From assembly GCA_903930435.1 (NCBI GenBank), contig CAIYYN010000048.1:62001-126000 (forward strand): a DNA stretch of 64,000 bases. Reading direction: 5' to 3'. This document shows positions 35,373-49,200 of the stretch, piece after piece. The translations under genes and the position numbers were made by a program. Under the pieces are notes generated by a model. It worked only from the letters and a program-made list of their open reading frames with translations, did not search any database and had not been told where the DNA came from. Source of the stretch: an uncultured Hyphomicrobiales bacterium. Its GTDB lineage: Bacteria; Pseudomonadota; Alphaproteobacteria; Rhizobiales; Ancalomicrobiaceae. Every line of letters begins with the position of its first letter. Positions within the stretch are counted from its first letter, which is position 1.

Positions 35373-35595
35373 TGAAAATAACAAAAACAAATGAAGAATA
35401 AACGAAATAAATAATATTTTGTCAGTGAAAAATATATCGTTATTTCGCGCAATATTGATTTTTGAGAAATAGAATAAAGATATTAAAATTCAAATAACTA
35501 AATGTAAATTGTATTTAATTATATTTTAACGATTTCAAACCTTATTTTATCTTAAGAATGAATAAATCTTATCTTACTCCCATAGGAGTTCTTGC
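35373..35595. promoter_or_regulatory. AT-rich leader upstream of flagellin-like gene
   Basis: About 220 bases of extreme A+T content with runs such as AAATAACAAAAAC and TTTAATTATATTTTAACG, in sharp contrast to the roughly 60% G+C of the window. It contains no gene. It presumably holds the promoter of the flagellin-like gene, possibly with AT-dependent silencing or DNA bending. I see no clear sigma-54 or sigma-28 promoter. Confidence 0.45.
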
Positions 35596-36411
35596 ATGCA
35601 AGCCTATTCATCATCGAGAGGCAGACTGGCTGATCGGCAGGCGGATCTCACGGAAGGTCCGCAAGGGGCGACGAGTCCCGCGCTGCCCACGCATAATGCC
35701 GTCCATTCGATGCAGGCAGTGCTGGCTGAATTCACGAAGACGTCGACGCTCAGTCGGCGGCTTGAGGAACTCGGGCGTGGATTGACCGTCCTCGATGCCG
35801 CGATCACGGCGCTGGATGAGATCGAGCGGCTGGTCAGCCAGGCGCGTCTCGTCGCCTATCAGGCCTTGATCGCTGTCGAGCGTGGTGATTCGGGTGCCTC
35901 TAAGGTCTCGCCCTACAACGCGCTGCTCGCTGAATTAAGCACCGAGGCAACCGATGCCGGTCGGCGCGGCGTGAACCTGCTTCAGGGGCAGACCTTGCAA
36001 CTGGTGTTCAATGAACCTGGCAAATCCACATTCACCCTTGAGGGTCTGTGTGCCGATGCCGAGGGGCTCGAACTGGCAGATGTGACCAAAGCCGATTTTG
36101 CCACGCAGGCCTGCATCGACCCGATCATTGAAACGCTCGATCGGGCGACCGTGACCGTCGGCATGTTCGGACAAAAACTGCGAGCCTCGCATGCCGGCCT
36201 GTCACTCAGCCAGACGTTCAGCGATGGACTCATTGATTCCTTGCTGGCCGCTTCCGGGCAAATGGCGTCGGTGGATACGCACGATGAGGCTGCCCGTGTT
36301 CAGCGGCTTCAGGTGAGCCAGATGCGTGAAAAACCCGCTCAGACGCTCATGCGGGAAGCCGAACGCGGGGTTCTCCAATTCCTCAAGCGGGCTGGTGGCT
36401 ATTACAGGTGA
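35596..36411 (+). CDS. Flagellin-like protein (D1-type core, no canonical N-terminal D0 helix)
   Basis: A 271-residue protein. Residues about 60-160 resemble the D1 part of flagellins (GLTVLDAAITALDEIERLV; DAGRRGVNLLQGQTLQLVFNE), and the same NLL-x-G-x-T pattern occurs in the giant flagellin next to it. The C-terminus has the heptad-like AARVQRLQVSQM in place of the usual ALQTRQ sequence and extends further with basic residues. The conserved N-terminal D0 helix of export-competent flagellins is missing. It may be a filament-associated protein, a divergent paralogue or an assembly factor. AGGAGTT supports the ATG at 35596. Confidence 0.7.
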   Translation: MQAYSSSRGRLADRQADLTEGPQGATSPALPTHNAVHSMQAVLAEFTKTSTLSRRLEELGRGLTVLDAAITALDEIERLVSQARLVAYQALIAVERGDSGASKVSPYNALLAELSTEATDAGRRGVNLLQGQTLQLVFNEPGKSTFTLEGLCADAEGLELADVTKADFATQACIDPIIETLDRATVTVGMFGQKLRASHAGLSLSQTFSDGLIDSLLAASGQMASVDTHDEAARVQRLQVSQMREKPAQTLMREAERGVLQFLKRAGGYYR

Positions 36412-36625
36412 ATGTAAATCCACAATAAAAAATAGAAATATAGAATAAATAGTAATTATTGATATCTGTGTAAAATCATTTTAGTCTATATATTCAAATA
36501 TAAGTATAGAAGAATGTAAGTAAAATTAAAATATTGATCCGCAAATTAACCTACAATTTACCTGCAAGCGTAATGATCAACTCACCTTGCCAGGGGAGGT
36601 CTGGCTTAACTCCAGGAGAGTTGCA
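36412..36625. promoter_or_regulatory. AT-rich leader upstream of the giant flagellin gene
   Basis: 214 bases, very AT-rich until about 36580, then an ordinary leader with CCAGGAGAG before the flagellin ATG. The composition mirrors the leader of the upstream flagellin-like gene, suggesting both genes share a mode of regulation. No gene in it. Confidence 0.45.
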
Positions 36626-39600
36626 ATGAGTTCGATTGTTTTATCTGCTGCGGTTCGCCAGAACCTTCTGTCACTGCAGAACACTGCCCAGATGCTGTCC
36701 GAGACGCAGAACATCCTGTCGACGGGCAACAAGGTGAATTCCGCCCTCGATAACCCGACCAGCTTCTTCATGGCCCAGGGCCTGAACAATCGGGCGACCG
36801 ACCTGACCAACCTGCTTGATGGTGTGTCGAACGGCGTGCAGACGCTGCAGACGGCCAACGCCGGTATCACGTCGATCCAGAGCTACATCGCGCAGGCCAA
36901 GTCGATCGCCCAGCAGGCGCAGCAGGCCCCGAGCGCCTATTCGCAGAAGTCGACCATCACGTCGAACGCGATCCTGAACAATGGTACGGCGATCACGTCG
37001 AACAACCTGCTCGGCACGGGCACGCTGGTAAATCAGCCGCTGGTCGGCTCCGCCCCCTTGGCTGGCGGTACACCGAATTCCGTCAAAGAAGTGAGCGCGC
37101 CGATTGACCTGGCAACCGCCACGGCAACCGGCAACGTTTCGCTGCAGGCTGAACCGCAAAATGCCGGCGTTGGCACGTTGACGGGTGTCACAGTTAACCA
37201 GACCACACCTGCGACGACGGCACCCGGCACCATTTCAAGTGCCAACTTCATTGGTGCAACAGCCATTGATCTCGGTGGTGGTGCAACGCCGACGGCAACA
37301 ACGACAACCTTCAACGGCATCACGCAAAGCGCAGGTGCTGCGACAGGCGCAACAGTACTTAGCGATCTGGGTATTGGTACATCAGGAACAATCACCGTTG
37401 GTGGCGTTGCGGTGACGTTTACGTCAGGAAATACTGTTCCAGCACCAATGCCGGCAACCAATCTTCTGACGATCGGCAATGGGTGTACCCTTACTCAATT
37501 GGCGACTGCTCTCGCATCTGCTGCGACCACTGGCAGCACTGCGACGGTCACAGGTAATACGCTCAAGATGACGACTGTTGCGGCGTCAAGTTACAGCGAC
37601 AGCAGTAATACGGGCTATCTCGCTGACCTTGGATTTACACCAACGACCAGCACATCAGTAACCGGCGCCGCACTCTATGATGCTGCCAACGCAGGCGTCG
37701 CCGCTGCAACAACGCTAATCAGCACCCCGGCTGCCGCCGCCGCTGACCAGGCAACCCCGACAATCGCCAATCCGCTGACCGCAGGCGATACGCTGGTTGT
37801 CAACGGCACCACCCTCACATTTGGCTCGTCAAATCCGAGCATCGTCGGTCCTGCTGATACCGTGCCAGTTGGCGGCGGCTCGTTAGGCACCGGCGCAACG
37901 CTCACTGACCTGAAGAACGCAGTCAACAATATCCTCGCGGCAACGACAGGCGGTACGGTCGCTATTTCGGGTAACAGCCTTCAGTTTGTTACGCCGACGA
38001 CCAAGGATATCACACTGCAGGGCAGCGCTCTGGCAAAGCTGGGTCTTTCAACAAATACCGCTGCAGCCGCGCAGATCGTCATTTCGCCGAAGGCGAACAC
38101 GGCACCAGCAACGGCCATAACAACCACGACGCCGGTAAACTGGTCGACCCGCAGCGCAGCCACGGACGTGCTTTCTGCCCTGGGCGTCGCCGGCGGTAAT
38201 GGAGGCTTGATCACCAGCAATGATACGCTGGTTGTCAACGGCACCACGATCACCTTCGGTGCGTCCACAGCAGCTGGAGCTACCCCGTCTGGCACGCCCC
38301 CAACGCTGGCTGTTGGCCAGGGCGCGGGCAATTCTTCAACCCTTGCCGACTTGGTGACAGCAATCAACACGGCCGCTGGAGGTGGCAGCCCGGTAACCCT
38401 GACCTCATACGCGTCTGGTGCACTCACCATCCAGTCGACTATCCCCTTGACCCTGAGCGGTACCGTTCTGTCAAAACTTGGTCTGGCGGCCAACTCCACA
38501 GCAAACGCCGTTCCGACTGCAATTCCGCAGGTCTCGGCGGATGCATCGATATCGATCCCGACGATTACAACACAAGCAGTCACGGGCGTTGTGACCGCAA
38601 ACAGCCTGCTGCAGAACCTGAGCAGTCCAATCACAGGTACCGCATCAGATACTCTGTATTTCAACGGCACGACTGCGCAATCCGCCTCGCCACTTTCCAT
38701 CAGCTTTGTGCCGAGTTCGAGCACAGTCAACGTCACGGCGAGCGGTGGAACGATCGGAACCGGGGCGACTGTTGGTCAATTGCTCTCAGCGATCAATACA
38801 ATTACGGGCGGTACGGCCTCGGTTAATTCGAATGGCACGATCACTGTTAACACCAAGCAGGGTTCAACGCTCCTCGTAACCGGCGGCGCGCTGAACAAGC
38901 TGGGGCTTTCAAGCCAGAGCGGAGCAAATGCCACTGTGTCGCTTGCCCCGAGCGCAATCAGCGATGTCGGCCCCGGCGTAAACGCTCTGGGTGCGCCGAC
39001 CAGCACCAACCAGCTCACCTACTTGCCTGGCAGCCAGCAGGGCAATGTTATTACAGCTGCCACGAACGATACGACGCTTTTGAGCACTGTTAACGCTGGC
39101 TTCAGCACAGCCGCTCCTCTCGTCATCACATCGGGAACGGTTACGTCAACGATCAGTTTTGGCAATACCGGTTCAAGCTCAACCTCCCTCACGCCTGGTG
39201 GAACGTCCTACTTCAATGCGACAACCGCTACGCTGAGTCAGCTTTTGGGTGCTATTGCAGTTGATACGGGCGGCGAAGCAACCATTGCGGTCACTCCAGC
39301 TGCGGGTGCCGGCTCGATAACGCTAACCAGCAATCCAAGCCAGCAAACCACGATCGTGAACGGGACTGTTCTGGGATATCTCGGCTTCCCGAGCGGTGTA
39401 AACTTCAGCCAGACCGCTTACGCCAGCGGCTCGCCGGCTCTAACAACCACACTGCTCAATTCGGTCTCTGGCATTGCCAATGGCAATACGCTCAGCCTGA
39501 CCGACGTGAACGGAAATACACAGACGATCAGCTTCTCGGCCTCGTCTGGTTCAAATACGGTCACGGCGACGGGTGGAACGCTCAACATGTCGACCGCTAC

Positions 39601-41707
39601 GCTCGGCAATCTGTTGACGGCTATCAATACGGTAACGGGCGGCGTCGCGTCTCTTAACGCAGCTGGTCAACTCCAGATCAACACCAACCCGAATGCCGCG
39701 ACCGTTCCGACAGGCATCGGATTGGCCTACAGCAGCAACTCGCAAGCGCTGCTCAATGGACTTGGACTTGCAAACACGACCGGTGCAAACAATACATATA
39801 CCGGTTCGATCGCCGTGACCCAGTCACCATCATCGCCAATTCAGTCCTCCAATCTCAGCACAACGCTGCTGTCTGAACTGGCCGTTGGCGGCAATGCTCA
39901 AACCCATGCTCTCAACACGGGTATCGGTGCGGGTGATGGCCTGATTGTCAATGGTACGACGATTACCTTCGGCCAGCAGCAGTCGTCTAACCTCGTTCAG
40001 ACGACGGGAAGCAATACGATTTCGTTGAGCAACCAGGCCTCATTGCAGGACCTCTTCAATGCCGTCGGCATTGCCTTGGGTGGTACGCTGAACACGTCGA
40101 CGAATACCGTCTCTGCAACCAACGGCAGCTCAGTATCGCTGAATGCCAATGGTCAGCTACAGATTACTGGAGGCGCTGGTCAGAGCCTGTCTATTGCCAA
40201 CCTGAGTAACAGTGGCACCTCAAACACGGCTTCCAAGCTTGGTTTGTCAACCGGTATCATTGCAGCAGGTCCGACCTCGACCGCAGCATCCACCACGACC
40301 CCACTCGTCAACCTCGGTGCTGTCGGAGCGTCAGGAAATTTGGTGGTCGACGGGACGACGATCACATTCGGCACAGCCAACCAATCCACAACGCTTTCAC
40401 AGAGTTCAGCGGGCATCTCGCTGAGCAACACTGCAACGATGCAAGACCTAATCAACGCCATCGGTGTTGCGACCGGCGGTAACCTTGTCAACGGTACGGT
40501 TACGGGCGGCGCGAAGGTTTCGCTTGGTAACAACGGAACCCTTACCGTCACGTCACCAAATGGCGAAGGTCTGCAATTCGGCGGTACCAATGCAGCGGCT
40601 CTCGGGCTGACCAATATCGCTGCGGCAGCAAGTTCGCCGTCGGCTGGTGTCGTGAACTCCAACACCTACCTGACAAACCTGTTGAACCCGATTTCTGTCG
40701 GATCAACATTGAGCGTAACGGACCAGAGTGGAACAGTTCACTCGTTCAGTTTCGCAGCCAATTCTCTGGGTGGTTTCACCTCCTCGGGCAACAACTATGT
40801 GATCAATGGAGCGGCAACTGTTGGCGATCTCTTGAATGCAATCCAGGCAGCAGGTGGTCCGGGTACGTCGGCCCAACTGAACCCAAGCACGGGTGCAATC
40901 CAGATTTCGACGACCAATACGACGTCCGCAACGCCAATTACCTTGTCGGGCACGGCAACCTACGCACTCGGCCTCAGCAGTGATAAGACGGGTGCAACCG
41001 CCGTCACCGCTGGCCCTGTCGGTGGAACCCTGTCCTTCGGTGCGATCGGTGATGGAACGGCTGTCACTGTTACCTTCGGTACCAATACTGCTGCAGGCCA
41101 GGTCTCGACCCTCAACCAGCTCAACACGGCGCTCGCTGTGGATAACCTCCAGGCAACGCTTGACGCTGCGGGTCATCTCAGTATCTCGACGACCGACAGC
41201 TACGCTTCCTACTCAATCGGCAACGTGGGCGGCTCCGCTGCCTCGCTGGTCGGCGGTGGCTTTACCGGTCAGACGGTCTCGGGTCCGGTCGTTGACACCA
41301 ACGCCATCTCGACCCGCGCCAATCTGGTCAACGAGTATAACTCGATCCTTGCCCAGATCGACACGACCGCTGCGGATGCAAACTATAATGGGTTGAATCT
41401 GCTGACCGGCGACACAATGACGCTGACCTTCGACGAAACCGGCAATTCGCAGATCAAGATCCAGGGTTTCCAGGATACATCCCTGGGCCTCGGTCTCAAT
41501 CCGCTGAATTCGTCGTCAACGGGCTTGAATGACTTCTCGGATAACTCGAAACTCAATGCCATCATCAAGAACCTGACCAACGTCAACACCACGCTGACCA
41601 ACCAGGCTTCTGCATTGAGTTCGCATCTGACAGTCATCCAGTCACATCAGGACTTCGACAAGGCTCTCATCAGCGCATTGCAGACCGGTGCTGCCAACCT
41701 GACCTAG
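36626..41707 (+). CDS. Giant flagellin with ten tandem variable domains, ended early by TAG
   Basis: A secreted filament protein of 1,693 residues up to TAG at 41705-41707. Residues 1-110 are a good flagellin N-terminus (D0/D1: MSSIVLSAAVRQNLLSLQ, ILSTGNKVNSALDNPTSFF, GLNNRATDLTNLLDGVSNG). From about 250 to 1,548 come ten degenerate repeats. Then about 1,559-1,610 (RANLVNEYNSILAQIDTTA, NYNGLNLLTGDTMTLTFDE) is D1 sequence that normally follows the N-terminal helices directly, so the repeats interrupt N-terminal D1. The C-terminal helix reaches ALQTGAANLT before the stop; its conserved end lies after the TAG in the same frame. Common flagellins are 280-550 residues. AGGAGAG fixes the ATG. The extension uses mostly Thr, Ser, Asn, Gly and Ala. 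Confidence 0.88.
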   Translation: MSSIVLSAAVRQNLLSLQNTAQMLSETQNILSTGNKVNSALDNPTSFFMAQGLNNRATDLTNLLDGVSNGVQTLQTANAGITSIQSYIAQAKSIAQQAQQAPSAYSQKSTITSNAILNNGTAITSNNLLGTGTLVNQPLVGSAPLAGGTPNSVKEVSAPIDLATATATGNVSLQAEPQNAGVGTLTGVTVNQTTPATTAPGTISSANFIGATAIDLGGGATPTATTTTFNGITQSAGAATGATVLSDLGIGTSGTITVGGVAVTFTSGNTVPAPMPATNLLTIGNGCTLTQLATALASAATTGSTATVTGNTLKMTTVAASSYSDSSNTGYLADLGFTPTTSTSVTGAALYDAANAGVAAATTLISTPAAAAADQATPTIANPLTAGDTLVVNGTTLTFGSSNPSIVGPADTVPVGGGSLGTGATLTDLKNAVNNILAATTGGTVAISGNSLQFVTPTTKDITLQGSALAKLGLSTNTAAAAQIVISPKANTAPATAITTTTPVNWSTRSAATDVLSALGVAGGNGGLITSNDTLVVNGTTITFGASTAAGATPSGTPPTLAVGQGAGNSSTLADLVTAINTAAGGGSPVTLTSYASGALTIQSTIPLTLSGTVLSKLGLAANSTANAVPTAIPQVSADASISIPTITTQAVTGVVTANSLLQNLSSPITGTASDTLYFNGTTAQSASPLSISFVPSSSTVNVTASGGTIGTGATVGQLLSAINTITGGTASVNSNGTITVNTKQGSTLLVTGGALNKLGLSSQSGANATVSLAPSAISDVGPGVNALGAPTSTNQLTYLPGSQQGNVITAATNDTTLLSTVNAGFSTAAPLVITSGTVTSTISFGNTGSSSTSLTPGGTSYFNATTATLSQLLGAIAVDTGGEATIAVTPAAGAGSITLTSNPSQQTTIVNGTVLGYLGFPSGVNFSQTAYASGSPALTTTLLNSVSGIANGNTLSLTDVNGNTQTISFSASSGSNTVTATGGTLNMSTATLGNLLTAINTVTGGVASLNAAGQLQINTNPNAATVPTGIGLAYSSNSQALLNGLGLANTTGANNTYTGSIAVTQSPSSPIQSSNLSTTLLSELAVGGNAQTHALNTGIGAGDGLIVNGTTITFGQQQSSNLVQTTGSNTISLSNQASLQDLFNAVGIALGGTLNTSTNTVSATNGSSVSLNANGQLQITGGAGQSLSIANLSNSGTSNTASKLGLSTGIIAAGPTSTAASTTTPLVNLGAVGASGNLVVDGTTITFGTANQSTTLSQSSAGISLSNTATMQDLINAIGVATGGNLVNGTVTGGAKVSLGNNGTLTVTSPNGEGLQFGGTNAAALGLTNIAAAASSPSAGVVNSNTYLTNLLNPISVGSTLSVTDQSGTVHSFSFAANSLGGFTSSGNNYVINGAATVGDLLNAIQAAGGPGTSAQLNPSTGAIQISTTNTTSATPITLSGTATYALGLSSDKTGATAVTAGPVGGTLSFGAIGDGTAVTVTFGTNTAAGQVSTLNQLNTALAVDNLQATLDAAGHLSISTTDSYASYSIGNVGGSAASLVGGGFTGQTVSGPVVDTNAISTRANLVNEYNSILAQIDTTAADANYNGLNLLTGDTMTLTFDETGNSQIKIQGFQDTSLGLGLNPLNSSSTGLNDFSDNSKLNAIIKNLTNVNTTLTNQASALSSHLTVIQSHQDFDKALISALQTGAANLT
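37380..41262 (+). repeat. Ten degenerate tandem domains within the giant flagellin
   Basis: Each unit of roughly 110-160 residues has the same order: a strand such as DTLVVNGTTITFG, a helix such as ATLSDLLNAIN, a strand such as GQLQI, and an ending such as KLGLS. Units begin near 37380, 37781, 38214, 38640, 39129, 39478, 39928, 40329, 40696 and 41020. Copies 2, 3, 7 and 8 share the VNGTT or VDGTT form most closely. They resemble flagellin/hook IN-type motif domains and are too diverged at DNA level to be recent duplications. Confidence 0.75.
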
Positions 41708-41827
41708 GCCGACATCAACACAGAAGTGGCGAACACCCAGGCACTCCAGACTCGCCAGTCTCTGGCAGTCTCATCCCTGCAGATCGCCAACCAGTCGCAG
41801 AACGCTGTTATCCAGCTGCTGCGCTGA
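41705..41827 (+). other. Conserved flagellin C-terminal D0 segment beyond the in-frame TAG
   Basis: Reading on in the same frame after TAG (41705-41707) gives 39 residues ending in TGA at 41825-41827: ADINTEVANTQALQTRQSL then AVSSLQIANQSQNAVIQLLR. This is the canonical flagellin C-terminus (ALQTRQ, LxIANQS, hydrophobic end), required for export and polymerisation. Its intactness means the interruption is new, bypassed by amber suppression, or a sequence error. Confidence 0.85.
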
Positions 41828-41862
41828 TCAACGACCGGTAACGGTACAAAACGACAATCGGG

Positions 41863-41888
41863 AAGGCGTCGCTCATGCGGCGCCTTTT
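41863..41888 (+). terminator. Rho-independent terminator after the flagellin gene
   Basis: AAGGCGTCGC and GCGGCGCCTT pair around TCAT with one G-T wobble, followed by TT. It lies 36 bases beyond the TGA at 41827, not after the TAG, which supports the view that the natural end of the gene is the TGA. Confidence 0.65.
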
Positions 41889-41969
41889 CGGCGTTCAGGG
41901 GGGGCGTGTGTTGTTCAGGGGTTGGATAAGCTTTGGCGGGGGCAGTGACCTTGAGACGCCGCTGGCTCG

Positions 41970-44051
41970 CTAGCGGCCTTCTCTCCACCACGACAGCGTG
42001 ATCGCGCCGATCAGCAGGACCACGCCCAGCAATCCGATGAACAAGCCGTAATGGTCGACGCCCTTGAGGACTGTCGCCTCTGTCATTCGGATGCCGATCC
42101 AGTCGGTGCCCGAGAGGGCAGCGCCCGCCCGTTGGGCTATCACCCGCGGGATTGACGCGACGTTACCCCGCATGATGCGACGGATGCTGCCACGTGTCTC
42201 ATCTGCCAGTGGCTGAAGGATCTTTGGCGTCGAGATGACATCCTGAAATTCACGGGGATTGAGCGGACCAATCGAGGCCAGTGCCGTGTGCGTGCCGTCA
42301 CTCGCCCGCCAGAGGCCCAGCTCATGGGCTGGCACTTCGGCGCGCCACAGGCCGGGCTCTGTTTGGCTCAAGGTTTGCGTGGTCTTCACGCCGGTCGGCG
42401 ACGTGAGTTCGACAGGCCCCACGCTTTCTGCCAAGGTCTGCCGCTCGACGACGAGATCGCGGCCATGCGCGGACAATCGCAACGCCTCTTCCTCGAGATC
42501 CGGTGCCTTCATTAGCCAGTGGGCAAGCCGCCTGAGCAGGATACCGTGCGGACCGCCGCCTTCAAATCCGCGCGCCCAGAGCCAGACGTGATCCGACGTC
42601 AGCAATCCGACGCGGCCCTTGCCCTCGCGCGACAGGATCATCAGCGGCTTGCCATGTGGCCCCTGCATCACCGTCGTACCGCCGGATTCATTTACCTCGA
42701 TCATGCGGAACCAGTGGCTCCAGTGCGGAGGATCAAAGTTGCCGCCGGGCAGGTCCCGCGTCACCGGGTGGCGTTTGCCAATCGGACTGACGGCGGCGAT
42801 GAATGGTTCCTCGAACACGGTTCCAGTCGGGTCGGCAGGCAGAACATTGGCGAGGGGCGTGCGGAAAAGGCTGCCGCTGCCGTTGAAGTCGGGGCCGGAT
42901 GCCACGAGCACCGCTCCGCCATCGCGGACGTAGCGCGCAATATTGTCGAAATAGAGCGCTGGCAGAATGCCGCGCCGCTGATACCGATCGAAGATGACGA
43001 GGTCAAAGTCCTTGAGTTTTTCCTGAAACAGTTCGCGCGTCGGGAACGCGATCAGGGACAGTTCGTTGATCGGGGTCCCGTCCTGTTTTTCAGGTGGCCG
43101 CAAAATCGTGAAATGGACGAGATCGACCGAGGCATCCGATTTGAGCAGGTTCCGCCAGGTCCGTTCACCTGCGTGTGGTTCGCCTGAGACCAGCAACACC
43201 CGCAAATGCTCGCGAATGCCGCCGATTGTCGCGATTGCACGGTTGTTGATGGGCGTCAGCTCACCGGGAAGGGCATCGGCTGCGATTTCGATGATATTGT
43301 CGCCCTCATGGGTGACCTTGAACCGGAATTTGACGGGAGCACCCGGTAGCACGGTGCTCTCGGCGATCTTCTCGCCGTCCCGGCTGATCACGACATGCGC
43401 ACGGCCAGCCTTGGTGGGATCGACGCCGTTGTCCGTCACCTTGTAGGTCAGGACCTGTTCAGAGCCCACGAGACCAAATCGGGGCGCATTCTCGATCGAT
43501 ACGCGCCGGTCGATCTCGCCGTCATGCCCGGAGAGAAGGACATGTAACGGAGCGTCGAACCCGAGTTGGGCGCGCGTCTTCGGCGTATCGTGAACCTGGC
43601 CATCCGTCAGCAGGATGACCGCGCCGATCCGATCTGGCGGCACGTCGGCAAGGCCATGCCCGAGGGCTTCAAATGCACGGGTCCCGTCTGCGCCGGGCGT
43701 ATCGTCGTCGCTCGTCACATTGACTTCGCGAATGTCGACCCCGCGAATCGCGCCCAACTGCTTGAGAAGGTCCGTGCGTGCGGTTTCGGTCTCCTGCGCG
43801 CGATCCCCTAGGCTCTGGCTCTGGCTGCGATCGGTCACGACGGCGACGACTGTGGGCAAGGGCTCGCGATTTTCGCTGACGATGGCGGGGTCAAGCAATG
43901 CGAGCAACAGGAGCACCGCCGACATGAGCCGGAGCCATGACCCCGGCAAGCGGCGCAGGATAGCAACACCACACAACAGCAACGCGGCACAGGCTGCCAG
44001 TGAAATCAGCCAGACCGGCAGGATCGGCGAGAAATCGATGAGCCAGTTCAT
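41970..44051 (-). CDS. Large membrane protein with VWA/glutamine-amidotransferase-like region
   Basis: A 693-residue protein with two N-terminal membrane helices (about 8-60), a von Willebrand-like segment (VVAVVTDRSQSQSLGD, then AVILLTDGQVHDT), beta-rich middle domains, a segment resembling class I glutamine amidotransferase folds (YVRDGGAVLVASGPDF) and a final membrane helix (GLFIGLLGVVLLIGAITL). It begins one base after the DUF4159 gene and ends in TAG. Last gene of the MoxR operon; role unknown, probably part of an envelope complex with the BatA-like protein. Confidence 0.85.
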   Translation of the reverse strand: MNWLIDFSPILPVWLISLAACAALLLCGVAILRRLPGSWLRLMSAVLLLLALLDPAIVSENREPLPTVVAVVTDRSQSQSLGDRAQETETARTDLLKQLGAIRGVDIREVNVTSDDDTPGADGTRAFEALGHGLADVPPDRIGAVILLTDGQVHDTPKTRAQLGFDAPLHVLLSGHDGEIDRRVSIENAPRFGLVGSEQVLTYKVTDNGVDPTKAGRAHVVISRDGEKIAESTVLPGAPVKFRFKVTHEGDNIIEIAADALPGELTPINNRAIATIGGIREHLRVLLVSGEPHAGERTWRNLLKSDASVDLVHFTILRPPEKQDGTPINELSLIAFPTRELFQEKLKDFDLVIFDRYQRRGILPALYFDNIARYVRDGGAVLVASGPDFNGSGSLFRTPLANVLPADPTGTVFEEPFIAAVSPIGKRHPVTRDLPGGNFDPPHWSHWFRMIEVNESGGTTVMQGPHGKPLMILSREGKGRVGLLTSDHVWLWARGFEGGGPHGILLRRLAHWLMKAPDLEEEALRLSAHGRDLVVERQTLAESVGPVELTSPTGVKTTQTLSQTEPGLWRAEVPAHELGLWRASDGTHTALASIGPLNPREFQDVISTPKILQPLADETRGSIRRIMRGNVASIPRVIAQRAGAALSGTDWIGIRMTEATVLKGVDHYGLFIGLLGVVLLIGAITLSWWREGR

Positions 44052-44052
44052 G

Positions 44053-46929
44053 TCATTGGCCCAACCGTTCCAGCAACGCCGGGACATGCACCTGATCGGA
44101 CTTGTAATTGCCGGTCAACGTGTACATGACGATATTGATGCCCACTCTGTAGGCCATCTCCCGTTGCCGCTGATCTGGCGGTACCGTCGGCAACAGGTAA
44201 TCTCCGGAGCCTGTGATCGCCCAGGCGCCTGCGAGGTCGTTTGATGTGATGATGATCGGCGAAACACCGTCACCTGTCCGCACCGGTCGGTCATTGGCAT
44301 CGCTGGGCTTCCGCGGCGGTGTCGCCTCGACCCATAATTGCCCGCCTTCAAATCGACCCGGATAATCCTGCAATAAGTAGAATGATTTGGTCAGAACGTG
44401 ATCGCTCGGGACCGGCTCAAGTTCGGGAATATCGAGACCCGCCAGAATACGCCGCAAGGCCGCCGTTGCCGGCGAAACCCGAGCCGTGCCATTCAACACA
44501 GATGCCTCCAGGGCATCGCGTGTGTCGAACAGGATCGTACCGCCGCCCTTCATGAAGGCGTCTATGCGCGTCAGAGCAGCCGGGCTTGGCGGAGGCGTGC
44601 TGGCATCAACGGCCCAGTAGAGAAGCGGAAAGAAGGCCAGTTCGTCGCGTGCGGGGTCGACACCGACCGGATCGGCTGCGTCGAGCGACGTCCGATCGCG
44701 CAGAACCCGCGTCAGGCCAACCAGCCCATCTCTGGCGATATCATCCAGATCTGGCTTTCCGGACAAGATGAAGGCAAGCCGGGTTCCATTGGCGGCCTGG
44801 AGATTGAAGGCGTCGGCCGTCGTCTTGTCGTTGATGGCAGGCGTTGTCGCAGCCGACTGGGCGAAGGCGTTGTCAGGGCCAAGAGTAGCATTGACCGCAG
44901 CAAACCCAAGGCCGCAAACCAGCACAGCCATTGCGACCGACCGTTTCAATAGAAATCCGCCGGACAGGATGAGTACTGCCGCTGTATCGAGGATGAGAAA
45001 CAGCACAGCCAGCGCGAACGTCCAGGGTTTCAAATCGACAGGCTGGTTGGAGCTGTAGGGCCTGATCGCCGCAGACTTGACGGGATCGAGATCGAGCAAT
45101 GTGATTCGGTCGTCAGGTCGCATCGGTTCGAGTGCCACAAATGCCTCGTCGGTCCCGTAGAGACCCGGCGGATGCTCGCGGCTTGCCGCGGTAGCAGGGA
45201 CGGCGTCGGACAGTGGCTTGGCATCGCCGGACGGACTGGTGCTGTGGCCGAAGCCGTCCAGCAATCGCAACGGTGGCAGGACTGTTTGGGCAGGCGAGGT
45301 TTCCTCGTTCGTTGCCGACTCAGTCTTGGAAGACGTCGCAACCGAAAACGACATCACGCGCCGCAGCATTTCGACGAAACTGCCTGAAAGTGGCAGGTTG
45401 GACCAACTGGTGTCAGCCGTGACGTGGAACAGCACCAGCCAGCCATTGCCGAACCGGCTGGCTGTGACAAAGGGTGTGCCATCGGCAAGGCTCGCCCAGG
45501 TCTTGCGCGTCAGATCCGGCCGTTGCTCGGCAAGTACCTGACGTGTGACTGTCACGTCCTTCGGCACAGTCAGCGACGCAAAGGGACCATTGGCTGAAAA
45601 ACTCGCCAACGCCTGCGGGGTTGACCAGGACATCGCCCCGCCGAGAGTCCGTTCGCCTTGTCTGAGTTCAACCGGGATCAGCTTGTCACTGCCCTTGATC
45701 GCGGCCAGCTTGGGTCCGGCAAAGCGAATGAAGACACCGCCACGGCTGACCCAGCCTTCAAGCGCCTTTTCGGTCTCGCCCACAAGCGTACCGACATCTG
45801 CCGTCACGATGACAGAAACATTTGCCTTCAGCAGATCCGTAATTCCCTGGTTGATATTGTCGCCACTGGGTTGCCGGACATCGGCAAATGGCTTGAGCGC
45901 CGTCTCAAGATAATGGGCCGGGGACAGCAAAGGTTGGTCAACATCACTTGTTGTCCCCGAGATCAGCCCGACGGTCCGCCTGCGCCAGCGCTCATCAAGC
46001 AATTGCACCGCTGCCGCATGTCCTTCTCCAACGATGTCAACGCGGGAGATTTCATTGCGCAATTCCGTCGGAAGTTCGAACTTCGCCGTCGTCTCGGAGG
46101 AATCTGCATCAAACGTAAAGTCGGTTGTCGCAATCTCGCGGCCCTTCTGGTCCAGCGCGCGCAGTTTGCCGGGGAGGGGTGCACTTGGGTCCACGCATCT
46201 GATTTTGACATCAAGTGATTTGAGGCCATTTTCGGTGGAGACGAGGACGAGAGGCACAGATTTCGGGCTGAAATGGACGGTGAGTGTAGACGCCTCGACA
46301 AGGTTGGCCAACGCACTACCGAAGGCGTGGCTGTTGCCGTCATCCAGGTTGTCGCTAAGCCAGTCGATGGAACCAGGCGACGTTTTGTCCGCAATCTGTT
46401 TGATCGGAGCAATCAGGCTCGCGCGATCAGGCGTCCAGCTACGCGGCTCCAGCGATTGCAAACGCGACCGGGCTTCCGGCGCGCTCATTGGCTGCAACGG
46501 TTGCGCCGGACCATCCGCTGTCGCGACGAGCACGATTGGGCGGTTGGCGCTACCGGCATCATCGATCAGATCCAGCGCGAGTGTCTGCCGGTCCTTCCAA
46601 TAGGGTGCGGCCGCCCAGCCATTGTCGATGACAAGCCAGAACGGCCCCTGCCGGGTGGGACCCTTGTTGATATTCGGCTGCCAGATCGGACCGGCCAATC
46701 CGATGATCAAGGCCGTTGCCAGCAGAAGCCGGAGCAGCGTCAGCCACCACGGACTGCGGTCAGGGGTTAACTCTTTTTCCTCGATATCCGCGAGCAGGCG
46801 CGTTGGCGGGAAGGCGATCTTTTGAGGGCGCGGGGGAAGCTTGCGCAGCAGCCACCAGATGATTGGCAGCAGCAGTAGCGTGCCCAGAACCCAGGGCACG
46901 GAAAATCCGAGTGCGAGGAAACCGCTCAC
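44053..46929 (-). CDS. BatA-like N-terminal / DUF4159 C-terminal membrane protein
   Basis: A 958-residue protein. Residues 1-90 form the BatA (aerotolerance N-terminal) domain with two membrane helices (VPWVLGTLLLLPIIWWLL; LLRLLLATALIIGLAGP) around the FPPTRLL motif. A periplasmic region follows, then two further helices near 620-680, and a C-terminal DUF4159 domain (about 700-958; RLAFILSGKPDLDDIARDGL; GGTILFDTRD). The start is GTG, overlapping the DUF58 stop (GTGA). With MoxR and DUF58 it forms a conserved alphaproteobacterial module of unknown function, thought to resemble MoxR-VWA chaperone systems. Confidence 0.88.
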   Translation of the reverse strand: MSGFLALGFSVPWVLGTLLLLPIIWWLLRKLPPRPQKIAFPPTRLLADIEEKELTPDRSPWWLTLLRLLLATALIIGLAGPIWQPNINKGPTRQGPFWLVIDNGWAAAPYWKDRQTLALDLIDDAGSANRPIVLVATADGPAQPLQPMSAPEARSRLQSLEPRSWTPDRASLIAPIKQIADKTSPGSIDWLSDNLDDGNSHAFGSALANLVEASTLTVHFSPKSVPLVLVSTENGLKSLDVKIRCVDPSAPLPGKLRALDQKGREIATTDFTFDADSSETTAKFELPTELRNEISRVDIVGEGHAAAVQLLDERWRRRTVGLISGTTSDVDQPLLSPAHYLETALKPFADVRQPSGDNINQGITDLLKANVSVIVTADVGTLVGETEKALEGWVSRGGVFIRFAGPKLAAIKGSDKLIPVELRQGERTLGGAMSWSTPQALASFSANGPFASLTVPKDVTVTRQVLAEQRPDLTRKTWASLADGTPFVTASRFGNGWLVLFHVTADTSWSNLPLSGSFVEMLRRVMSFSVATSSKTESATNEETSPAQTVLPPLRLLDGFGHSTSPSGDAKPLSDAVPATAASREHPPGLYGTDEAFVALEPMRPDDRITLLDLDPVKSAAIRPYSSNQPVDLKPWTFALAVLFLILDTAAVLILSGGFLLKRSVAMAVLVCGLGFAAVNATLGPDNAFAQSAATTPAINDKTTADAFNLQAANGTRLAFILSGKPDLDDIARDGLVGLTRVLRDRTSLDAADPVGVDPARDELAFFPLLYWAVDASTPPPSPAALTRIDAFMKGGGTILFDTRDALEASVLNGTARVSPATAALRRILAGLDIPELEPVPSDHVLTKSFYLLQDYPGRFEGGQLWVEATPPRKPSDANDRPVRTGDGVSPIIITSNDLAGAWAITGSGDYLLPTVPPDQRQREMAYRVGINIVMYTLTGNYKSDQVHVPALLERLGQ

Positions 46930-47846
46930 GACTGGCCTCCTGCCTTCGGTGCGCTGAACGCAGACAGTTTGGCTGAAGCATTTCCGGTCGCGGAAAGTCG
47001 GGCATGCAGCGCCAGAAGCGGTTCGGTTGCCGGACGATCAGTATGATGTGCGAGAAAGCTCCAGCCAAAACGGTCTGCGAGCTGCCGTATTCCATCGCGA
47101 TGTGCTGCGAGCCGGGCGCGATAGGCAAGCCCCCAACGTTCCGCGCGGCTTGACGTGATGCGCTGACCTGTCTCGGGATCGCGAAACTCTGTTCGCCCTG
47201 AAAAGGGAAAAGTCTCTTCTGCGGGATCAAGCACCTGCAACAGGTGTCCACGCACGCCCGACGCAGCGATGATCCCGAGCCTTTGGGACAACGGCTCCAA
47301 AGGATCGAGAAAATCGCCGATGAGGATCACATCCTGGAACCGGCGGATCGGACCTCCGTCCGGCATCGCGTCTGACGTTGCCATCAACGCAAGTGCATTT
47401 GCCACGCGTTCGGCGGCCTTTCGGTCCGGTGTAGGTGTCAGGATGCCGGGTAACCCGATGCGTTCCCCGCCGCGCGACAGCAGATCGGCGATGGCAAGGG
47501 TCAACACGACGGTCCGGTCACGCTTGGTGACCGTTGAGAGCGCGGACCTGAAATCCATCGAAGCCGACAGGTCGGGCCACAGCCAGATCGTATGTGCGCT
47601 TTCCCATTCTCGTTCCCGGACGTGGAGGCTGTCATCCCGTGCTGATTTGCGCCAGTCGATCCGCGTCACGGCTTCGCCGGCTGAAAACGGGCGGAATTGC
47701 CAGAAGGTTTCGCCAGGACCCGCCTGACGTCGACCGTGCCAGCCCGATGCGACTGTTGCGGCGATGCGATGCGCCTCGACAAGCAGGTCCGGCAACGCCG
47801 AAGACAGGGTCTTGGCGGAGGTGACGAGATTGATCTCGCCGCTCAT
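46926..47846 (-). CDS. DUF58 family protein
   Basis: A 306-residue cytoplasmic protein with the DUF58 hallmark GPGETFWQFRPFSAGEAVTRIDWRKSARDDSLHVRE around residues 42-78, followed by a VWA-like fold (IWLWPDLSASMDFRS). DUF58 proteins are usual partners of MoxR ATPases. The ATG at 47846 is used rather than a GTG two codons upstream. It overlaps the next gene by four bases. Confidence 0.9.
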   Translation of the reverse strand: MSGEINLVTSAKTLSSALPDLLVEAHRIAATVASGWHGRRQAGPGETFWQFRPFSAGEAVTRIDWRKSARDDSLHVREREWESAHTIWLWPDLSASMDFRSALSTVTKRDRTVVLTLAIADLLSRGGERIGLPGILTPTPDRKAAERVANALALMATSDAMPDGGPIRRFQDVILIGDFLDPLEPLSQRLGIIAASGVRGHLLQVLDPAEETFPFSGRTEFRDPETGQRITSSRAERWGLAYRARLAAHRDGIRQLADRFGWSFLAHHTDRPATEPLLALHARLSATGNASAKLSAFSAPKAGGQS

Positions 47847-47928
47847 TGTCACTGCGACACCCTCACGCGCTTGATCCGAACCAGCGGGATAGCGAAGCCT
47901 GCTTGCAACCGGTACACCCCTTCAACGA

Positions 47929-48939
47929 TCATACAATCCGTTTTTTGGCCAGACGGATGACATCCTGAACCGTGACGCCGTCTGCGCGCGCCGCGAATGT
48001 CAGCGCCATGCGATGTTGGAGGACGGGTTCAGCCAGTGCCAGCACATCCTCAACGGAAGGAGCCAGTCTGCCATCATAGAGCGCGCGGGCACGCGCCGTG
48101 AGGGAGAGCGCTTGGCTGGCACGCGGGCCTGCGCCCCAGGCAACATGTTTGGTGATCTCGCTCGGTTGGCCCTCATCCGGACGTGTCGAGCGGACCAGCT
48201 CCAGGATCGCATCGACGACTGCCTGAGACACGGGCATCCGCCGGACGAGCTGCTGGATCCTGACAAGTTCGCTTTCTGTCAGCACCGCCGGGGTCGAAGC
48301 CAAGCCTTCTCCGGTCGTCTCCAGCAGGATGCGGCGCTCGGAGGCCAGATCCGGGTATTGAACATCGATCTGCATCAGGAACCGGTCGAGCTGCGCTTCA
48401 GGTAAGGGATAGGTGCCTTCCTGCTCGAGCGGGTTCTGCGTGGCCAGGACATGGAACGGACGCGGCAAGTCGTGGCGCTGTCCGGCGACGGTCACATGAT
48501 ATTCCTGCATCGATTGCAGCAGGGCCGACTGCGTGCGCGGGCTGGCGCGATTGATTTCATCGGCCATCAATAATTGCGCGAACACCGGCCCGCGAATAAA
48601 CCGAAACGACCGTGAGCCATCAGGCGCCTGATCGAGCACTTCGGAACCCAGAATATCTGACGGCATCAGGTCCGGCGTGAACTGCACGCGCCGCGCATCC
48701 AGCCCGAGCACGGTTCCAAGTGCTTCGACGAGACGGGTCTTGGCCAGACCGGGTACGCCGACCAGCAGCCCGTGCCCGCCCGCCAATATCGCGACCAGTG
48801 ACCGTTCGACGACGCGCTCCTGTCCGAAGATGACCTCGGCGACACCGGCCTTTACTTGCCGCAGGCGCTCAACAGATGCTTCGGCCTCCGCCACGATCGT
48901 GCTGGAGTCAAAATCGGCAGTCGGAACTGTTACCGTCAT
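47929..48939 (-). CDS. MoxR-family AAA+ ATPase
   Basis: A 336-residue AAA+ ATPase with Walker A GVPGLAKT (about 61-68), Walker B LLMADEINRASPRTQSALLQ, sensor region VLATQNPLEQEGTYPLPEAQLDRF and the C-terminal lid. MoxR proteins act as chaperones that mature or activate partners with VWA domains; the next three genes encode candidates. The ATG at 48939 has AAGGA upstream; a TTG five codons earlier is less likely. Confidence 0.92.
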   Translation of the reverse strand: MTVTVPTADFDSSTIVAEAEASVERLRQVKAGVAEVIFGQERVVERSLVAILAGGHGLLVGVPGLAKTRLVEALGTVLGLDARRVQFTPDLMPSDILGSEVLDQAPDGSRSFRFIRGPVFAQLLMADEINRASPRTQSALLQSMQEYHVTVAGQRHDLPRPFHVLATQNPLEQEGTYPLPEAQLDRFLMQIDVQYPDLASERRILLETTGEGLASTPAVLTESELVRIQQLVRRMPVSQAVVDAILELVRSTRPDEGQPSEITKHVAWGAGPRASQALSLTARARALYDGRLAPSVEDVLALAEPVLQHRMALTFAARADGVTVQDVIRLAKKRIV

Positions 48940-49200
48940 GTGGTCCTTGTCCAATGTGGGGCATCGTAAATGTGCTTATAGTCCAGTCTGGCAGGAAGTT
49001 GATCGCAGTGCACTCTCTATTTCGCGGGCGCAAGTCATTGAGGCGCGCGATTAATAGCCGATCTGTGACCGAAATTGAGGTGGCAAGATGACGTATCTGT
49101 GGATCACACTGGACGTCTTGGCAGAAATACGCGATGGGTGGCACCAGATTTTGAAACACACCACCGCCCGCACCCGATTGCGGGCCTGAAAGGATCACCC

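Follow-up and report, generated by a model that had tools for sequence, protein, structure and literature searches.

The host of the flagellin gene described here is a relative of Bradyrhizobium. In the window, i.e. the whole stretch of 64,000 nucleotides that was analysed and to which all coordinates refer, this gene was found as one open frame on the forward strand (36626-41704), which starts with an ATG at position 36626, a few bases downstream of CAGGAGAG, and codes for 1,693 amino acids. The product thereby belongs to the giant flagellins, defined by a length of more than 1,000 residues (PMC6248924). The parts of the gene and its immediate surroundings are as follows.

35596-36411, forward strand: neighbouring insert-less flagellin-like ORF of 271 amino acids, with its own exact promoter box at 35515-35530
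36546-36561, forward strand: predicted CtrA-like box TTAA-N7-TTAAC, one mismatch, 64 nucleotides before the ATG of the giant gene
36626-36925, forward strand: ND0 and ND1a (residues 1-100), 72% identical to the paralogue with a 571-amino acid frame; Flagellin_N, 34.9 bits
36926-37375, forward strand: insert head of about 150 residues that precedes unit 1 and contains no assigned unit
37376-37777, forward strand: unit 1, distal type according to the tree; jackknife score 19.8 bits versus 7.2 for the best shuffle
37778-38212, forward strand: unit 2, distal type; 50.2 versus 11.1 bits (jackknife versus best shuffle, also below)
38213-38635, forward strand: unit 3, distal type; 52.5 versus 7.1 bits
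38636-39094, forward strand: unit 4, distal type; 63.7 versus 10.6 bits
39095-39475, forward strand: unit 5, distal type; 26.1 versus 8.8 bits
39476-39925, forward strand: unit 6, distal type; 36.6 versus 7.5 bits
39926-40321, forward strand: unit 7, distal type; 36.2 versus 7.5 bits; modelled
40322-40693, forward strand: unit 8, distal type; 47.9 versus 10.2 bits; modelled
40694-41020, forward strand: unit 9, distal type; 27.3 versus 6.2 bits; weak DUF1522 match
41021-41284, forward strand: unit 10, stem-proximal type; 13.8 versus 5.8 bits
41315-41704, forward strand: ND1b, D1 hairpin and CD1 (residues 1564-1693)
41705-41707, forward strand: in-frame TAG
41708-41827, forward strand: CD0 tail, 39 conserved codons after the TAG, followed by a TGA (41825-41827)
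41850-41895, forward strand: terminator-like hairpin 3' of the TGA (fold of the 61-nucleotide stretch 41840-41900, -27.2 kcal/mol, z -4.85)

The N-terminal D0/D1 region was recognised by the Flagellin_N profile in the genome search (cut-off 26.6 bits); a Pfam hmmscan of the 1,693-amino acid protein listed no flagellin family. Between ND1a, which ends at residue 100, and ND1b, which starts with RANLVNEY at residue 1564, lies an insert of 1,462-1,463 residues, consisting of the head and ten related units (starting at residues 251, 385, 530, 671, 824, 951, 1101, 1233, 1357, and 1466). The initial annotation had located ten tandem domains at 37380-41262, which is almost exactly the array delimited here. 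It had also counted about 1,450 inserted residues between the first D1 helix and its continuation; the site stands and the length is corrected to 1,463. Its chain of 1,733 residues equals the 1,693 residues plus the TAG codon and the 39 codons up to the TGA, and so runs past an in-frame stop that it did not mention. The masses of the truncated product and the full-length form are estimated at about 164 kDa and 168 kDa, respectively.

The relatedness of the ten units was borne out by the profile self-alignment that had been proposed to check it. Indeed, when each unit was scored against a profile of the other nine, 13.8-63.7 bits were reached and every unit exceeded all of its 200 shuffles (best shuffle 5.8-11.1 bits, depending on the unit). 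The array looks old, since the unit pairs listed are 18-43% identical at the amino acid level, Tandem Repeats Finder reported no tandem array in the DNA of the insert, and the strongest likeness between units at the DNA level is a 44-nucleotide stretch of units 2 and 3 (86% identical). At the borders of the insert, no direct repeats longer than 8-mers were found. These properties bear on the explanation that the ten-unit array is an assembly artefact, either a chimera or a false expansion. The genome is a draft in which other flagellin genes end at contig ends, but the frame continues uninterrupted to the TAG, the units are divergent, a DNA tandem array is lacking, and unit 10 occupies the expected stem position, and this explanation deserves hardly any credence.

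Two types of unit were distinguished in a tree, displayed without support values, that included 20 of the 127 distal and 20 of the 109 stem units of relatives. Unit 10 grouped with the last (stem) units of the relatives, with 62% identity to that of flagellin L073, so that the giant, like its lineage, carries a stem unit adjoining ND1b. Units 1-9 grouped with the other (distal) units, with 7/8 and 4/6 as pairs. One unit of genome G002 (G002_uA1) fell outside this split, and unit 1, distal in the tree, yet had its best single identity (36%) with a stem unit. Profile comparison with hhalign related the units of the giant to the distal units of relatives (98.3%, E 2.6e-14, with six hand-picked rows) and to the pair of DUF1522-type units in a Bradyrhizobium flagellin, L095 (95.1%, E 3.1e-8). 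The single stem domains of relatives, compared with the units of the giant, gave 79.4% (E 1.5e-5). DUF1522 (PF07482) is the fourth entry in a list of flagellin hypervariable-region domains (PMC5595980). Its relationship to the units of the giant is remote, the best direct match being that of unit 9 (40781-40984), with 15.8 bits below the Pfam cut-off of 25. Other families were considered as well. Flagellin_IN was rejected as unit family, as it gave no match at E<=5 in seven single-unit stretches of the ten or at E<=1 in the whole protein. OTU1_UBXL (PF21403) scored 35.7 bits on the whole protein (cut-off 22.7), with no single stretch passing, and was read as a sum of weak repeat matches rather than a genuine UBX-like domain. 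FlgK_D1 matched the unit-4 stretch at E 0.0028 (17.7 bits, below the cut-off of 28.6). A search for the metallopeptidase domain of flagellinolysins returned no peptidase family in the giant (Pfam, E<=1, with HMMER filters, by which weak matches can be lost).

The position of the insert was examined in 148 distinct flagellins, the giant included, using profiles for three core segments; this sample leans to Bradyrhizobium and its kin, with 78 loci from a search with the N-terminal flagellin sequences of this genus (best 80 of 553). In 138 of the 148, at least 80 residues were present in the ND1a/ND1b loop and 19-27 in the loop after the D1 hairpin. The giant, with 1,462 residues at the former site and 25 at the latter, canonical one, has this lineage architecture. 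The placement between the first and the next N-terminal D1 helices instead of after the D1 beta-hairpin, as given in the initial annotation, is therefore upheld by sequence, in agreement with a structure model of L048 (see below), but an exceptional status of this position is not supported, the site being used by 138 of the flagellins compared. Nine flagellins, from four genomes in the genera g2 and g3, which belong to the same family, had 5-7 residues at ND1a/ND1b and 123-128 at the canonical later site. A domain of the latter size is borne by L017, L018, L019, L023, L027, and L030, from two sister genera, and one family thus has two attachment sites. The remaining sequence was the neighbouring 271-amino acid ORF, with neither site filled (6 and 20 residues), and none of the 148 had both D1 sites occupied. 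Probed for a possible common origin, the domains from the two loops gave hhalign values of 42.6%, 12.7%, and 2.0%. The comparison of the flagellins suggests a rule, namely that outer domains are carried on one of two D1 loops, not on both, and grow in unit steps. Among the matches listed in a literature search (titles and openings of abstracts, mostly without subscription journals), no publication was found that deals with an insert in the ND1a-ND1b loop of a flagellin or with two sites as alternatives.

Among the closest known counterparts are the Bradyrhizobium-type flagellins, represented by the NCBIfam models PRK12688 (752 positions) and PRK14708 (888 positions), which, judging from the named loci, appear to cover Bradyrhizobium. 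They share with the giant the D0/D1 core, the ND1a/ND1b site, and related units. The giant scored 340.1 bits against PRK12688 and 276.2 bits against PRK14708, short of the curated thresholds of 614 and 1384, respectively. It differs from this type by its TAG and by its 1,463-residue insert, whereas the inserts of the 148 others among 149 distinct complete flagellins, as measured with the first profile, span 120-874 residues. The latter lengths cluster at 120-175, 241-303, 389-405, and 460-532 residues, with single cases at 212, 355, 614, and 874; a three-segment pass with more genomes added inserts of 937 (L130) and 759 (L131) residues. The insert of the giant is thus the longest among those compared, the next one being 937 residues long.

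Units in the relatives were counted with the window's own profile at E<=0.01, which is insensitive in relatives. Among inserts of 100-199 residues, no unit was found in 28 of 33 and one in five. Inserts of 200-299 residues had two units in 31 of 36 cases, one in two, and none in three, and those of 300-399 residues had no unit in two cases, one in one, and three in one. For 400-499 residues, three units were counted in 42 of 69 inserts, four in 18, two in two, five in one, and none in six, and for 500-599 residues, four units in three of four and none in one. The inserts of 614 and 874 residues had four units each, and the giant has ten. Insert length thus appears to rise in rough steps of about 120 residues, although this ladder is approximate, since the heads, in which no unit was recognised, differ in length as well. 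The survey of relatives for repeat-number variation, which had been proposed beforehand, hence showed that insert length and unit counts vary in approximate steps, with the giant as the longest. The outer-domain chain may have grown unit by unit at the usual ND1a-ND1b loop of the lineage, yielding nine distal units and one conserved stem unit. As such, the giant illustrates the reach of outer-chain growth in flagellins, with ten units on a non-textbook attachment point, a number that none of the relatives compared reaches. In 297 genomes of the order of the host, 195 had an N-terminal flagellin match, and the longest frames among the matches listed measured 1,725 (the giant, from stop to stop), 1,235, 1,176, and 1,040 residues. 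Within the genus (three genomes), no flagellin of like length was found; G002 has the 1,176-residue frame and the flagellins of G001 lie on contigs too short for a judgement.

Structure prediction for a relative places the attachment point in the same loop. The AlphaFold2 model of L048 (527 amino acids, same architecture; 40 sequences) had a pLDDT of 83.9 and a pTM of 0.63, and in it the outer domain leaves between helix 50-100 (ND1a) and helix 356-382 (ND1b). The D1 core of this model matches solved flagellins, for instance 6xky_A (Z 19.0, rmsd 2.2, 181 residues). A second model, of residues 1101-1693 of the giant (43 sequences; mean pLDDT 73, pTM 0.36), displays units 7-10 as separate beta-alpha-beta domains, followed by the ND1b and CD1 helices. 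Low-confidence stretches (pLDDT <50) occur between or near units, at model positions 111-134, 188-193, 215-222, 235-249, and 354-361. This model fits linked beads, and the packing between units is beyond it at this pTM. The units of the giant would project from D1 as a string of beads. Foldseek returned no match at E<=0.001. Below the safe level of the tool, similarity was seen between the hook protein FlgE2 (5npy; Z 7.6, rmsd 2.9, 114 residues) and unit 9 taken together with the end of unit 8, and between FliD (5h5v; Z 4.8, rmsd 3.4, 81 residues) and unit 10.

Giant flagellins of more than 1,000 amino acids have been described in Bermanella and Oleibacter, where repeated outer domains arose by duplication (PMC6248924). 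The present giant shares their length class and the repeated outer domains. In those proteins, as described, a central insertion replaces D2/D3 and contains two DE regions, whereas the present giant carries ten units of another kind at ND1a/ND1b. The tree of the same study includes a giant flagellin of Methylobacterium. Giant flagellins form thick filaments in two marine gammaproteobacteria (PMC6248924), so an intact form of the present giant would plausibly thicken the filament.

The genome contains four N-terminal flagellin loci, the giant included, and three C-terminal loci above the cut-off; besides the giant, one other flagellin gene is complete in the assembly, a draft of 73 contigs. The flagellin genes L001, L003, L005, and L006 (contigs C24, C2, C66, and C65 of this genome) are cut by contig ends within similar middle stretches, and the flagellin set of the genome is thus only partly assembled. 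In a phylogenetic tree, the giant grouped with the paralogue with the 571-amino acid frame from the same genome (support 0.87) and then with G002 (0.58). As the giant groups with a paralogue of its own genome, native duplication is a more likely origin of the segment than acquisition of a foreign gene. The branch of the giant is long (0.395) beside that of its sister. At core positions common to at least 90% of the relatives, the giant departs in 18 of 108, compared with 4 of 131 for the sister and 8 of 131 for G002; eight same-site flagellins of more distant genera (L025, L032-L034, and L128) depart as much or more. Even before the stop arose, the giant may thus have evolved fast or under relaxed constraint or, alternatively, have been specialised, which counts against the simplest account of a flagellin that was fully functional until recently.

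As to expression, TTAA-N7-TTAAC, which we take to be the CtrA box, occurs as a predicted site before several of these genes. Besides the giant, it was found 65 nucleotides before the 271-amino acid ORF (no mismatch), 68 and 70 nucleotides before two paralogues (no and one mismatch, respectively), and 64 nucleotides before the gene of G002 (one mismatch). Paralogue L039 is without such a box, its best candidate having two mismatches at a distance of 130 nucleotides. Among 122 flagellin upstream regions of 150 nucleotides, 34 contained the exact box and seven a box with one mismatch; in mononucleotide shuffles (20 for each region), the frequencies were 0 and 1.1%, respectively. In the named relatives, a box with at most one mismatch was located 90-99 nucleotides upstream in 23 of 37 cases. 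Across the window, the pattern with at most one mismatch occurred seven times, against a shuffle mean of 1.78, and 1 of 100 shuffles reached seven. Sites resembling those of sigma-54 were not found at 36000-36700 with a loose search pattern. While intact, the giant would have shared the regulation of the other flagellins, undergone export, and entered filaments as a bulky subunit beside shorter flagellins.

The frame as sequenced ends before CD0, and the in-frame TAG bears on how the gene is to be read. At the same position, a sense codon is present in the three other C-terminal flagellin sequences of the genome and in G002. Compared with these four sequences, the 39 codons past the TAG had 69-72% identity, pS 0.47-0.58, and pN 0.19-0.21, and the 125-126 codons before it 49-56% identity, pS 0.55-0.63, and pN 0.30-0.33. 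Although 39 codons are few and synonymous sites are near saturation, the tail appears at least as constrained as the part before the stop, which suggests constraint until recently or still. This conservation indicates that the stop is young, an error, or tolerated; as it is also expected from read-through or error, it is not specific to recent inactivation. The sequenced product lacks the 39-residue CD0 helix, and Flagellin_C gave no match to it; with an X at the stop, 16.8 bits were obtained (cut-off 23). The C-terminal profile covers positions 1-132 of 170 in the giant. According to PMC8306008, the flagellin monomer has disordered termini, which are critical for polymerisation, and the C-terminal region of flagellin binds the chaperone FliS; in Caulobacter, the flagellin secretion chaperone is FlaF (PMC7591256). 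As the C-terminal region is needed for these functions in the flagellins studied, the truncated giant should not assemble. The large repeated outer domain announced by the initial annotation is thus present, but the filament that it was to decorate is less likely, as the sequenced frame stops before CD0, and adhesion, sheath formation, or immune or phage evasion, which it named as possible roles, would be hypothetical functions of an intact form.

The preferred reading, with a probability of about 0.6, is that the giant, a native paralogue, belongs to a known kind of flagellin, that its outer chain grew to ten units, and that the TAG probably inactivated it recently. Loss of the CD0 helix would leave the product unassembled, and the gene would most likely be an allele that lost its function recently, while the cell retains at least three further genes for flagellin. 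Any direct biological claim is limited, since the gene as sequenced is probably dead.

Alternatively, the TAG may stem from a fault in sequencing or assembly, and the gene may be intact in the living organism, encoding a working giant flagellin in thick or mixed filaments. The TAG is the single disruption in a frame of 5.2 kb, the CD0 tail is conserved, the promoter box and the terminator-like hairpin flank the complete reading frame, the assembly is a draft of many contigs with other flagellins running off their ends, and the two marine species provide a precedent for such filaments (PMC6248924). Mis-assembly of the array, for its part, is made unlikely by the differences between the units at the DNA level, and an error at the stop is a minor, though tangible, possibility. 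Disrupted frames in several relatives show that broken-looking flagellins are not rare in drafts. Indeed, among 33 N-terminal frames without a C-terminal part, seven entries (six distinct genes) did not simply run off the locus end, with runs of N in three (L117, L102 at 2461, and L115) and a frame disruption without N in the printed stretch in two (L102 at 5152 and L123). The remainder, L028/L023 (G005:C239), from a fragmentary genome, has an in-frame TAG near the end of ND1a, amid sequence that looks poor and divergent.

Read-through of the TAG would yield a small dose of full-length giant subunit, sparse in the filament, and would account for the conserved tail. However, TAG is an ordinary stop here, ending 9 of 49 mechanically selected ORFs of the window, the giant included; a search for suppressor tRNAs returned seven CUA-type pattern matches and no tRNA, with a pattern so narrow that absence is unproven; and among 149 distinct complete frames no other one has such an ending, four other C-truncated rows stopping at the end of a locus or contig. 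Read-through is accordingly very improbable. Neither is it likely that the truncated product is itself functional, i.e. exported by the flagellar system without being assembled, so as to form a large extracellular domain chain. By description, this would be comparable to the flagellin-homologous proteins of Vibrio, which are reported to act in the biofilm matrix and may not assemble (PMC6692518). The intact N-terminal region and the adjacent insert-less ORF, which is also off the standard plan, would suit such a role, but constraint seems to persist in the tail past the stop, although a truncated product with a long-standing function would have no need of it. As a more speculative combination, to which little probability is assigned, the flagellins of the order would use one of two D1 loops and never both, the ND1a/ND1b chain would evolve in whole units, and the giant would be dosed into filaments made mainly of short paralogues, its full-length dose being kept low by the TAG, provided that the latter is real and tolerated.

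The giant and its neighbour lie between genes coding for a GNAT protein and a DUF7408 protein. Neither the ends of the giant nor the 271-amino acid ORF gave a tblastn match (1e-6) in the loci beside the DUF7408 gene of eight relatives. The matched ends of GNAT and DUF7408 are 12, 294, and 271 nucleotides apart in G002, G011, and G013, respectively, and 6.7 kb apart in the genome of the giant, where this distance holds two flagellin-type genes. In G001, G014, and G048, they are farther apart (1.3-3.7 kb), and GNAT was not found in the searched stretches of G007 and G004. Adjoining the flagellin pair, the reverse strand (41970-48954) codes for a MoxR-type ATPase, a DUF58 protein, a BatA/DUF4159 protein, and a DUF7408-like protein (weak, below the cut-off).

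The 271-amino acid ORF, with its exact box 65 nucleotides upstream, has little recognisable ND0. It matched PRK12688 at 5e-27, below the cut-off, and among 61 genomes, of which 37 had a match, the matches other than the ORF itself were all 22-36% identical. It is possibly a regulatory or secreted flagellin-like protein. The regulatory flagellin FljJ of Caulobacter, a divergent paralogue beside structural ones, was likened by description mainly to this ORF, although FljJ does enter the filament (PMC7591256). Finally, very AT-rich intergenic stretches occur at 35400-35600 and 36400-36500 (19-24% GC in 100-nucleotide blocks, in a region of about 60% GC), and the 150 nucleotides before three paralogues are AT-rich as well (34-41% GC).
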